25,072 bases of DNA, taken from IMG/VR virus record IMGVR_UViG_3300013102_000073, positions 1 to 25,072 of that record; one strand, 5' to 3'. A model generated the notes under the pieces. That model saw nothing but the letters and a program-made list of their open reading frames with translations, did not search any database and was not told the DNA's origin. Source of the DNA: a virus. This document shows, piece after piece, positions 15,507 through 18,658 of this stretch; position 1 is the first letter of the stretch; each line of letters opens with the position of its first letter. A program made the translations under genes and the position numbers.

Positions 15507-16652
15507 TCACGCTTCTAGTTGTTTACCCATGTTGCTGAACACGAGCGCGCCCTTGGTGTGGCTGGAATGCATGAGGTGTGCGTACACGCGTTCGGTGGTC
15601 GCTGTTGAGGAGTGCCCGAGTCTGCGTGCCACCTCGTACAAACTGAGCCCGCCTTGGAGCCCCCATGACGCGCTGGTGTGCCTCAGATCATGCAGTCGTG
15701 GCGTCTTGTGGAAGCTTGGATCCTCGGCGCGCGCCTTCTCCATCGCTTCCTGCCAGGCGTTCCACAAATACTTTTGCGCCACCCGCCCACCTGTTGATGT
15801 GCGGAACACGAGCGTATCCCCTGAGACGCCTTCCATGGCTGGTTTCAGGGCCTCAATAACCATGGGCGGGATGCTGACACTCCGCTTAGAACTGGCGGTC
15901 TTAGGCTGCGCAATGTAGTACGCATTCGCCCCGTCACGCTTCCACGACTTATTCAAACGAACAACCCACGTAAACCCGGCGTCCGCGTCCCTGACCTGCG
16001 CGAAGTCCCCCACCTTCACCGCTGTAGCCTCACCGAACCTCGCCCCGGACATGACCAGGAACAACGCGAGCGGCTGCCATAACGGGTTGAGGTTCCGGTA
16101 TAGGAGTTCCCATTCGTCCCACGTGAGGAACTGTTCTTTGTCCTCGGCGTGTTCGGTGGTCGGCAACGCTACCCCGCGGCAAGGATTATCCGGCCGGTAA
16201 CCCAACCTGATCGCCGTTTCCATGCCGGCGCTGATGAGCCCGTGCACGTTCCTAATGGTCTTCGGCGCCAACTGCTTGTCCTGCATCGCCCGAACCCAGC
16301 TAGTGAGGTGCCGGATGTCCAGCGCCGTCACAGCAACGCCACCAATGTGCGGGCTGATGTGGTCGTTGATCATGTTCCGGTAATTACGGATCGTCTGAGA
16401 CGTGGGTTTCACGAGCAGGTCAACATGTTCCGTCAACACCTGGGACACTGTGCGGGCGTTCTGCGTGTGCGCGTACACGACAGCCTCAGCAATGTTGTAG
16501 CTGTTGCTGTTCAGCTCTAGTGCGGCTTTGAACAGTTCAGCCTCAGCCACGGTATCGAACGACTGCCCACGCTGCTTACCGTCCGAGTCGCGCCAACCAA
16601 CCGTGTGATACTCCGACCCGTTCGCCCGGGTGCGGGTACGGATACTAGCCAC
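15507..16652 (-). CDS. int: Tyrosine integrase
   Basis: 381-aa site-specific recombinase for attP x attB integration. The N-terminal domain (1-55, S-I-R-T-R-T-R-A-N-G-S-E-Y) is of the arm-binding type, the core-binding SAM-like domain lies at about 65-165, and the catalytic domain at 170-375. Catalytic set visible: Arg205 in S-G-A-R-F-G-E, Lys251 region (P-K-T-A-S-S-K-R), H-D-L-R-H-T (His321, Arg324), L-G-H-S-S (His347) and Tyr357 in E-R-V-Y-A-H-L. All present, so probably functional. GTG start at 16652, two bases after the preceding stop, suggests coupling. attP lies about 420 bp upstream, with arm sites to match the N-terminal domain. Confidence 0.95.
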   Translation of the reverse strand: MASIRTRTRANGSEYHTVGWRDSDGKQRGQSFDTVAEAELFKAALELNSNSYNIAEAVVYAHTQNARTVSQVLTEHVDLLVKPTSQTIRNYRNMINDHISPHIGGVAVTALDIRHLTSWVRAMQDKQLAPKTIRNVHGLISAGMETAIRLGYRPDNPCRGVALPTTEHAEDKEQFLTWDEWELLYRNLNPLWQPLALFLVMSGARFGEATAVKVGDFAQVRDADAGFTWVVRLNKSWKRDGANAYYIAQPKTASSKRSVSIPPMVIEALKPAMEGVSGDTLVFRTSTGGRVAQKYLWNAWQEAMEKARAEDPSFHKTPRLHDLRHTSASWGLQGGLSLYEVARRLGHSSTATTERVYAHLMHSSHTKGALVFSNMGKQLEA

Positions 16653-17071: not shown

Positions 17072-17096
17072 GGTGCCCGAGGTGGGACTCGAACCC
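17071..17096 (-). other. attP core: 3' end of a tRNA gene
   Basis: Read on the - strand: GGGTTCGAGTCCC (T-arm with TTCGAGT loop), then ACCTCGGGCA and CCA. Beyond 17096 the T-stem no longer pairs (ACGGG against CCCAC), so identity to the host tRNA probably ends near there. The tRNA type cannot be read from this fragment; the acceptor would start near TGCCCGAGG. Confidence 0.75.
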
Positions 17097-17144
17097 GTAT
17101 CCCAACCCTGTCAGGACGCGGAAAACCCCTAGAACACAGTCCCC

Positions 17145-17171: not shown

Positions 17172-17252
17172 GCAATTTTGTTGACGCCGTCAACAGCCGG
17201 CACCAGCCCACCTTTTCAAGCTTTAGGGCACTTTAGGCGGAACCAATAAAAC

Positions 17253-17287
17253 GCAAAAGGCCCCCACCGGATGGTGTGGGCCTTTGC
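17253..17287 (-). terminator. Terminator downstream of the tRNA-like RNA
   Basis: Near-perfect stem (CACC/GGTG core, GGCCC arms, one bulge), loop of four, followed on the - strand by GTTTTATT. It ends transcripts coming from the tRNA-like element. Confidence 0.75.
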
Positions 17288-17296
17288 TGTTCTAGT

Positions 17297-17410
17297 TGGT
17301 TGCGCTGGCGGGATTCGAACTCCGCGTCCACTTCCCCGGCATAAGGTTGGACACCGTATCCACGACTGCCGCGTGGGGTGTAGCTATTGCCATCCACTAC
17401 AGACAGCACA
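17297..17410 (-). ncRNA. tRNA-like RNA with long variable arm
   Basis: A 114-nt cloverleaf can be drawn. Acceptor TGTGCTG/CAGCGCA (one G-T), A discriminator and encoded CCA. D-arm TGTAG/CTACA with 13-nt loop containing GG. Anticodon arm CCACG/CGTGG with 7-nt loop CGGCAGT. Long variable arm GTGTCCA/TGGACGC with 17-nt loop. T-arm GCGG(A)G-TTCGAAT-CCCGC with one bulged A. Oddities: base 33 is G not U, the T-stem has an extra A, and total length exceeds class II tRNAs. Nominal anticodon would be GCA. CTAGTTGG before the 5' end pairs with CCAACTAG at the 3' end, extending the acceptor helix to 16 positions and hiding CCA. A terminator follows. Probably a non-decoding tRNA relative; it could be a decayed tRNA. 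Confidence 0.55.
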
Positions 17411-17446
17411 GCCAACTAGAAGTCTATAGGAGCGCTTTGTTGTCGC

Positions 17447-17650
17447 TCATCCTTGGCTCCTGTAGGGGCTGGTGATCTGGGTAGTGGCCTCGAAGTCTTG
17501 GGCCACTCCGACCTCGCGTCCAGCCTCCCACGCTTCCGCCAGCATGTGCGGGGACGCGGCTTCGAGCATCTTCCGAACCGTTGCCCTCGATAGCCAGTCG
17601 TCATCAGGGATCTTCGAACGAGCCGCCTCTACCGCAGCTTCCGGGATCAC
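17447..17650 (-). CDS. Small conserved actinophage protein (67 aa)
   Basis: 67-aa protein, GTG start at 17650 overlapping the DUF6221 stop (GTGA). The text M-I-P-E-A-A-V-E-A-A and M-L-E-A-A-S-P-H-M-L-A-E-A-W-E-A-G is a pattern seen in many small actinobacterial phage and host-associated proteins (V-P-x-A-A-V-E-A-A ... L-E-A-A-A-P-x-L). No function known to me. Longer upstream reading in this frame is inside the DUF6221 gene and unlikely. It is co-transcribed with that gene and ends about 35 bases before the tRNA-like RNA. Confidence 0.65.
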   Translation of the reverse strand: MIPEAAVEAARSKIPDDDWLSRATVRKMLEAASPHMLAEAWEAGREVGVAQDFEATTQITSPYRSQG

Positions 17651-17928
17651 TTGGCCCACTCCTGCTGGTAGGCCGGGTGAGATGCGTAAACACATGCGAG
17701 GACCGCGAGAACTTCGCCGTCACTGTGCGCCAAGAGTTTCCGCTTTGCGGCGGCTTCGGCGGCCATGCGCTCCGGCACACCACAGTTGCACGGGTAAGAG
17801 TAGCCAGACTCGTCCGGGATCCAGCCACAGTCCTCCCGGTGGCACTCCCGCAAGGTGGCCGACACTTCATCCTCGGTAATGCGAGCTTCCAGGAACTCGG
17901 TGATCGTCATTTGCTTATTGTCGCTCAT
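17647..17928 (-). CDS. DUF6221 family protein
   Basis: 93-aa protein matching the DUF6221 pattern: (M)T-I-T-E-F-L-E-A-R-I-x-E-D-E near the N-terminus, a middle part with Cys pairs (C-H-R-E-D-C-G and Y-P-C-N-C-G), K-R-K-L-L, and C-terminal L-A-V-L-A-C-V-Y-A-S-H-P-A-Y-Q-Q-E-W. Function of the family is unknown. I use ATG 17928; the second Met (17910) is where many relatives begin. TAGGAT-N6 precedes ATG 17928, so it may be leaderless, although a G-run could act as a weak ribosome site. An AAGTRC-type motif lies 34-50 bases upstream. Confidence 0.8.
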   Translation of the reverse strand: MSDNKQMTITEFLEARITEDEVSATLRECHREDCGWIPDESGYSYPCNCGVPERMAAEAAAKRKLLAHSDGEVLAVLACVYASHPAYQQEWAK

Positions 17929-18033: not shown

Positions 18034-18444
18034 TCATACGGGGGTGAGCATCCGCGCTGGGTGGCGGGCTTCAACAATGGGACACAGCCGGCACGTCAAA
18101 CAACCCACAGCCTCAGCCTGCGCATCCGTCAACGTCGCCGCACGATCCATCAACACCTGACGCGTCACACCAAGACCACGCGCAACCTGGGCGAGCGTCG
18201 AACCCTCACACCGCGGGCCGCCCTCAGCCAGATTCGAATCAGGGAGGAGGCGGCGGGCGGTCTCGTAGCGGACCATCATCTCAACCGCCTCAACCTGCAC
18301 CGTCGAATGGCCCAACTCGATATGGATCTGCTCGTGAGCTACGGCGCACTTCTCCTGCACCTCATTCAACCGATCATCAACCCAAATATCGACACCATCA
18401 GTACGAGCCGCCACACCATCAGGCATGCGCGTTTTATATACCAT
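18034..18444 (-). CDS. ImmA/IrrE-like metallopeptidase
   Basis: 136 aa from ATG 18444; a GTG at 18489 would add 15 residues, and the start is uncertain because neither has a clear ribosome site. The family signature is complete: T-D-G-V-D-I-W-V-D-D-R-L, then A-H-E-Q-I-H-I-E-L-G-H, an HExxH zinc site (His37, Glu38, His41 from this start), and a later M-V-R-Y-E-T-A-R-R-L-L helix. A C-terminal helix-turn-helix-like stretch (T-L-A-Q-V-A-R-G-L-G-V-T-R-Q-V-L) follows. In ICEBs1, ImmA cleaves the repressor ImmR; here the neighbouring two-HTH regulator is the likely partner. Context and motif are strong, the partner is inferred. Confidence 0.82.
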   Translation of the reverse strand: MVYKTRMPDGVAARTDGVDIWVDDRLNEVQEKCAVAHEQIHIELGHSTVQVEAVEMMVRYETARRLLPDSNLAEGGPRCEGSTLAQVARGLGVTRQVLMDRAATLTDAQAEAVGCLTCRLCPIVEARHPARMLTPV

Positions 18445-18658
18445 GACCAACCGTAAAACCCCCAGCGTTAGAACTATCGTGTCGCCCACTGCATAACCGA
18501 CATGTGAAAAGCATATTTGAAGCCAACGACATTATTAGCACTAGCACAGCCCCTAATGGATCCTTGGCGAGACAGATCGGTCACACAGCCTACTGATTAC
18601 AAGGCATGCCACGATTTGGTGTAGGAAAAGATGCGCCGAACCTGCGCAGACACTTCGT
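18445..18658. other. Gap between ImmA-like and regulator genes
   Basis: About 210 bases with no convincing gene. Locally AT-rich around 18500-18560 on the - strand, with AATAAT (5 of 6 to a -10 box), but no good -35 found. It probably carries the promoter of the ImmA-like gene. Confidence 0.3.

Follow-up and report, generated by a model that had tools for sequence, protein, structure and literature searches.

A Probable Non-decoding tRNA-Mimic RNA with a Closed End in Temperate Actinophages

Introduction

The stretch of viral DNA analyzed here (the window; 25,072 bases of the incomplete IMG/VR virus record IMGVR_UViG_3300013102_000073, labelled G000) encodes on its minus strand a structured RNA that is very probably a conserved, non-decoding mimic of tRNA. 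On the evidence of sequence comparison it appears to be a real and previously uncatalogued RNA belonging to a well-supported family, as relatives in other contexts keep its shape while changing its letters. With confidence a little short of even, we read it overall as an unchargeable, sealed tRNA mimic of temperate actinophages, most likely acting as a decoy for a protein that binds or cleaves tRNA. A preliminary description of positions 17297-17410, made from the letters of the window, had drawn a non-standard cloverleaf there; the observation itself is confirmed, and the reading attached to it is partly supported.

Genomic Setting

The relatives of the window's tape-measure and integrase genes are Arthrobacter phages and actinophage-like metagenomic contigs. 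Along the minus strand the order is repressor, metallo-protease-like gene, DUF6221 ORF, an orphan ORF, the RNA, a terminator-like hairpin, attP, a small ORF and a tyrosine integrase (Table 1), an order that makes the RNA the last element of the lysogeny operon; no promoter-like match was found. The GC hairpin and T run at 17285-17247, on the same strand, bear out the earlier attribution of a terminator to the RNA, and from their sequence they are probably the intrinsic terminator of both the RNA and its operon. The attP core is identical over 24-25 nt in the integrase relatives L135, L136 and L137, and in the window its length seems sufficient to restore the host tRNA.

Two further features were observed in this region. 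A palindrome, GTTGACGGCGTCAAC, lies at about 17195-17140 (minus strand), where direct repeats, GACACTCGT, adjoin attP; the palindrome recurs close to attP in L138 and L136 and, as a variant, in L135. Palindrome and repeats together are likely arm-type integrase sites. Separately, an eight-codon ORF, ATGAGCGACAACAAAGCGCTCCTATAG (17450-17424, minus strand), has the same beginning as the gene at 17928 (MSDNK...) and may be what is left of a gene truncated at the position of the RNA cassette.

Table 1. Features of the repressor-integrase region of the window and of the RNA encoded there, in order along the minus strand.
Feature	Positions	Strand	Basis or remark
Two-HTH phage repressor	18659..19402	-	sequence/family search
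Metallo-protease-like gene (ImmA/IrrE type), repressor operon	18034..18489	-	phrog_87
DUF6221 small ORF, repressor operon	17647..17928	-	PF19730, E 1e-9
Small ORF immediately upstream of the RNA, without family match	17447..17695	-	family searches
Sealed tRNA-mimic RNA, whole structured unit, 132 nt	17290..17421	-	
P1 (long closing helix), 5' strand: TTCTAGTTGG extension, mismatched C, TGTGCTG of the acceptor-like stem	17404..17421	-	18 positions, 14 with compensatory double changes
D-like arm TGTAG/CTACA, 5-bp stem, 13-nt loop with central GG	17379..17401	-	5/5 pairs kept in all three members, one compensatory
Anticodon-like arm CCACG-CGGCAGT-CGTGG, G at 33, without U33	17360..17376	-	3/5 pairs compensatory in L220, model-fitted alignment
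Conserved motif ATACGGTGTCCAACC (ATACGG-YG-CCAACC in all three members)	17345..17359	-	alignment
Long variable arm GTCCA...TGGAC	17326..17352	-	consensus fold; register in L220 uncertain
T arm GCGG(A)G-TTCGAAT-CCCGC, one bulged A	17308..17325	-	U54, C56, A58, U60 of the T-loop kept in all three
3' strand of P1: CAGCGCA, A, CCAACTAGAA; CCA 17299-17297 within the helix	17290..17307	-	
GC hairpin and T run, same strand as the RNA	17247..17285	-	sequence
25-nt attP core, similar to the 3' end of a host tRNA gene (acceptor end ...CTCGGGCAC)	17073..17097	-	
Tyrosine integrase	15507..16652	-	phrog_1, E 1e-62

Structure of the RNA

The cloverleaf part of the RNA, which reads on the minus strand (17410-17297), measures 114 nt and has a terminal CCA, as the preliminary description had it. 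Its acceptor-like stem pairs TGTGCTG (17410-17404) with CAGCGCA (17307-17301), followed by A and CCA (17300-17297). Beyond this stem, TTCTAGTTGG (17421-17412) pairs with CCAACTAGAA (17299-17290) over 10 bp, and only one C/A mismatch stands between the extension and the acceptor stem. The earlier proposal that CTAGTTGG pairs with CCAACTAG, extends the acceptor and hides the CCA thus picked out the key feature, although the repeat is longer (10 bp) than had been noted; the helix also shows the strongest covariation. The other irregularities that had been listed are likewise all seen: U33 is missing (G33 in CGGCAGT), the T-stem is bulged by an A, and the variable region is long, at 34 nt.

The single-sequence minimum-energy fold gives the long helix a pair probability of about 1 and the inner cloverleaf about 0.1; as this fold yields only the long helix, assignment of the inner arms rests on the relatives and on tRNA motifs. 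The plus strand of the element folds no better than shuffles. A possible pseudoknot joins CGGCA of the anticodon-like loop to TGCCG of the variable loop in the window and in L219, with the letters unchanged between them, and is absent in L220.

Relatives and Covariation

The family has three members: the window RNA, L219 and L220. A covariance model built from the window sequence alone (R1), run over 50 related whole records, recovered L219 (G034:5000-5134, minus strand) at 97 bits (E 7e-23) and L220 (G030:999-1127, plus strand) at 36 bits (E 1.6e-7). Since ordinary tRNAs peak at about 23 bits with R1 or with a three-sequence model (R2), neither match is merely a tRNA. The same two models returned only weak chance-level or ordinary-tRNA matches in well over 100 further actinophage records, and close integrase relatives share the attP core, yet their records hold no convincing match to either model. 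Nucleotide searches found nothing similar in 50,697 phage records beyond generic T-arm and terminator matches, and generic T-arm, terminator or chance matches only among GenBank phages and plasmids. The exact T-arm/acceptor pattern had no match in IMG/VR, core-pattern searches returned only records of the two known relatives, and an integrase search in genomes gave distant clostridial matches only. The sealed RNA is rare and sporadic among actinophage records. The terminator matches in Arthrobacter phages MrSmee, Pitbull and Hum25 extend to the hairpin alone, and loci carrying the anticodon-loop and T-loop pattern, once scored with R1, proved mostly ordinary tRNAs or chance matches, none of them convincing.

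Compensatory changes, for which the preliminary description had proposed looking in related phages and whose absence it had named as a refutation, together with a match to a known Rfam family, are plentiful, and no such match arose. In a MAFFT alignment of the three members that was not fitted to the structure, 95% of tested cells are paired and double compensatory change affects 16 of 28 pairs; none of 500 shuffles of this alignment equalled the observed value, and slid structures reached 35-49% paired. The model-fitted alignment gives 99% paired, with double compensatory change in 18 of 35 pairs. The closing helix P1 is the most strongly covarying part of the RNA, 14 of its 18 pairs having changed on both sides in the alignment not fitted to structure, and the RNAalifold consensus of the three members is a cloverleaf with a variable arm. 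Between the window and L219, identity is 44% in P1 and 84% in the core, which argues that P1 is maintained by pairing and the core by sequence.

All three members keep the closing helix, the U that follows it, the D-like arm, the central GG of the 13-nt loop, the anticodon-like stem, the ATACGG-YG-CCAACC motif, and U54, C56, A58 and U60 of the T arm. What they do not keep is the CCA, U33, the length of the anticodon-like loop (7 nt in the window, 8 nt in L219, shorter in L220) and the bulged A of the T stem. The CCA position reads GAT in L219 and CTA in L220; the encoded CCA, which had been taken as part of the design, is therefore unconserved. This pattern of kept and lost features indicates that selection preserves the tRNA body, the elbow and the closed end, and not decoding or charging. 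Single-base indels separate the window sequence from that of L219, ruling out a shared reading frame, so the element is not coding.

Recognition by tRNA and RNA-Family Tools

The judgment that the RNA is neither a decoding tRNA nor a tmRNA holds up well. ARAGORN called neither on the window element, and Rfam returned no family at gathering thresholds, with chance-level matches only at relaxed ones; none of its tRNA-type families attains its cut-off. Among relevant matches below threshold the best is tmRNA, which scores 11.9 bits where 47 would be needed, and although the RNA shares a tRNA-like T arm and acceptor with tmRNA, it has no tag reading frame and, at about 132 nt, is too short. Whereas a tRNA has a 7-bp acceptor and a free 3' CCA, here the acceptor is 17-18 bp and the CCA is paired in the window and absent from L219 and L220. 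In place of a 7-nt anticodon loop with U33, the window has CGGCAGT (G33), L219 an 8-nt CGGCTAGT, and L220 a shorter and different loop. The elbow letters, by contrast, are those of a tRNA (GG in the D-loop and TTCRANY in the T-loop), L219 having the T-loop variant TCCAATT.

A strict cloverleaf descriptor gave 201 matches over 2.25 Mb of fetched phage loci, 198 of which ARAGORN also calls as tRNA; the window element is among the remaining 3. A control descriptor with a reversed T-loop gave 0 matches. The window element is alone in extending its acceptor by more than 5 bp (10 bp, against 0-5 bp in the other 200).

Other unusual tRNA-like sequences were observed along the way. An odd cloverleaf not called by ARAGORN (L265:1084-1175, plus strand, and L313; TCCCCTG/CAGGGGA, loop CATCCCA without U33, ACAG replacing CCA) lies about 3 kb from the large terminase gene of a different actinophage. 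A large phage (L079, about 6847-6758, minus strand) and a second record (L096) carry a tRNA-like GCGGCAGTC...GTTCGAATC stretch, with about 50 nt separating GCGGCAGTC from the T loop, possibly an intron or a non-standard tRNA. Finally, pairing leaders and trailers occur now and then outside the sealed-mimic family: in tRNA-like genes at L078:8092-8188 (plus strand) and L096:2551-2647 (plus strand) they lengthen the acceptor to about 14 bp.

Genomic Contexts and Alternative Explanations

The RNA is a discrete, insertable cassette. Each of the three members has a different context: the window copy adjoins attP, the L219 copy precedes the small terminase gene, and the L220 copy is about 1 kb from the left end of the G030 prophage, which has a serine integrase at its right end. 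The same HNH-terS junction as in L219, but lacking the RNA, occurs in L232 and L233, whose phages are near relatives of the L219 phage (97-98% identity over the part of the large terminase that was compared); the alignment breaks off a few bases short of the helix at one end and, at the other, up to about a dozen bases past it. In L138, a terminator of the window type directly follows the last ORF of the operon, with no RNA between them.

The G030 context suggests an RNA antitoxin, in which the tRNA-like RNA would bind and silence a phage HEPN-type ribonuclease as part of a type III-like toxin-antitoxin or abortive-infection pair. There, a gene (L226:1-807, plus strand) whose product combines a membrane segment with a C-terminus that is HEPN-like and contains the RX4H motif RNDIAH ends about 75 nt upstream of two tandem tRNA-like RNAs on the same strand. 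The arrangement resembles AbiF, a prophage pair of HEPN-like protein (RNQCAH) and structured antitoxin RNA (PMC12373285). However, the AbiF RNA family RF03085 is unmatched, and a HEPN-type gene is adjacent in only one of the three members; in the window and in L219 no such gene is recognized next to the RNA. The HEPN-like end matches PF18735 at E 2e-4, below that family's cut-off, with weak Csm6/Cas13b-like matches; tblastn finds no relatives of the gene in phage or plasmid records, and the predicted structure of the protein, with a mean pLDDT of 49, is of too low quality for fold comparison. We consider an antitoxin role unlikely.

The second of the tandem RNAs (L220:882-994, plus strand, IMGVR_UViG_2927815084_000001) lies between the HEPN-type gene and the family member. 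It has a 10-bp closing helix without CCA, a D loop with GG, a GAAA-capped long variable arm and a bulged T stem, and its own minimum-energy fold is a cloverleaf with a long variable arm (z -1.6). It matches neither ARAGORN nor Rfam, and a model built from it (R3) found no further member.

Distinctly unlikely, in our estimate, is a cis-acting element, the fold serving as a processing signal, mRNA stabilizer or leader regulator of its own operon. A cis role is possible for the L219 copy, which occupies the 5' leader of the small terminase gene and stops about 20 nt short of the ribosome-binding site; the window copy immediately precedes the operon terminator. Against such a role, the three contexts have no downstream gene in common, the core is 84% identical in unrelated contexts, and the elbow letters are conserved, though unnecessary for a simple stem.

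The preliminary description had also offered a decayed tRNA captured during excision, which in its fuller form would be a host or phage tRNA taken up by imprecise excision at the neighboring tRNA attachment site. The overall likeness to tRNA, the encoded CCA and the location beside a tRNA-type attP agree with this origin, but the structure persists in two relatives from unrelated contexts, the closing helix evolves by compensation, the core is conserved between unrelated phages, and the phage records searched hold no similar sequence apart from the generic matches. We disfavor it as very improbable. Slighter still is the chance of an unusual but functional decoding tRNA, or a pre-tRNA with pairing leader and trailer. 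Some ordinary phage tRNAs have such leaders and trailers (L078, L096), and tRNA-dependent lysogeny is known in actinophages (PMC10865867), the likeness to phage tRNAs extending to a cloverleaf gene in a temperate actinophage with an adjoining attP in a tRNA gene. Yet the sealed RNA as drawn can neither decode nor be charged: U33 is lacking, the loop varies in length, and neither anticodon nor CCA is conserved. Moreover, attP retains the 24-25-nt tRNA core, so a replacement tRNA is unnecessary. A DNA-level element (a cruciform, recombination or packaging site) is scarcely credible, for despite the long inverted repeat and the location of two of the three copies near attachment sites and one near packaging genes, RNA-type details are conserved (D-loop GG, T-loop), G-U pairs occur on one side only, and the window terminator is directional.

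A Possible Decoy

The suggestion in the preliminary description that the RNA may be a decoy or a regulatory RNA is a reasonable inference. The ends of the transcript zip into a continuous 17-18-bp helix that replaces the acceptor stem, leaving no free 3' end for charging, while the D and T loops retain the letters used for docking in the tRNA elbow, and the RNA has a long variable arm in addition. As the last element of the repressor (lysogeny) operon, before the terminator, the RNA is probably made in the lysogen. An unchargeable, exonuclease-resistant decoy could occupy a protein that reads the tRNA elbow and the acceptor/T stack, candidates being tRNA-cleaving toxins or nucleases, whether encoded by the host or by a competing phage, and tRNA-processing enzymes. 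We hold the decoy function itself tentatively, as a possibility clearly below even.

The decoy reading draws on analogy with two systems. In the bacterial Y RNA YrlA, the stem that is not tRNA-like departs on the anticodon side; in the sealed RNA, it is the two ends of the molecule that build the extended acceptor helix. YrlA and other bacterial Y RNAs, whose partner is Ro60/Rsr, resemble the sealed RNA in being non-coding, in having a tRNA-like module with elbow letters and in lacking a usable CCA end; a tRNA-like module without a free CCA is a likeness, not proof of homology. The sealed RNA differs in having no Rfam match and no TROVE/Ro60 gene (PF05731) in G034, G030 or the incomplete record G000. 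For YrlA, competitive inhibition of a tRNA nuclease has been proposed (PMC7790460). The second analogy is with viral RNAs that copy the tRNA elbow and capture tRNA-binding proteins (PMC4810234). Plant-virus tRNA-like structures of the TYMV type reproduce the elbow within an otherwise different architecture, as the sealed RNA does, but they are aminoacylated 3' ends of RNA genomes, while the sealed RNA is a separate gene of a DNA phage and has a closed end. A possible role against tRNA-targeting defence is also shared with phage tRNAs whose altered anticodon loops evade tRNases (PMC10264068); those, however, decode and replace cleaved tRNAs, unlike the sealed mimic of the window.

Significance

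If a decoy of this kind exists, phages possess dedicated RNAs that reproduce the body of a tRNA but not its function and that go unseen by tRNA finders and by Rfam, and an RNA layer would be added to the conflict over tRNA-cleaving defences. Such RNAs would provide a natural tool for probing which proteins read the tRNA elbow, and would suggest that many non-standard "tRNA-like" phage genes are functional, not decayed. Conceivable, though doubtful, is the broader idea that sealed tRNA mimics form a new class of insertable cassettes in temperate actinophages, serving as weapons or shields against tRNA-targeting immunity, some of them paired with a membrane HEPN ribonuclease that they would restrain.
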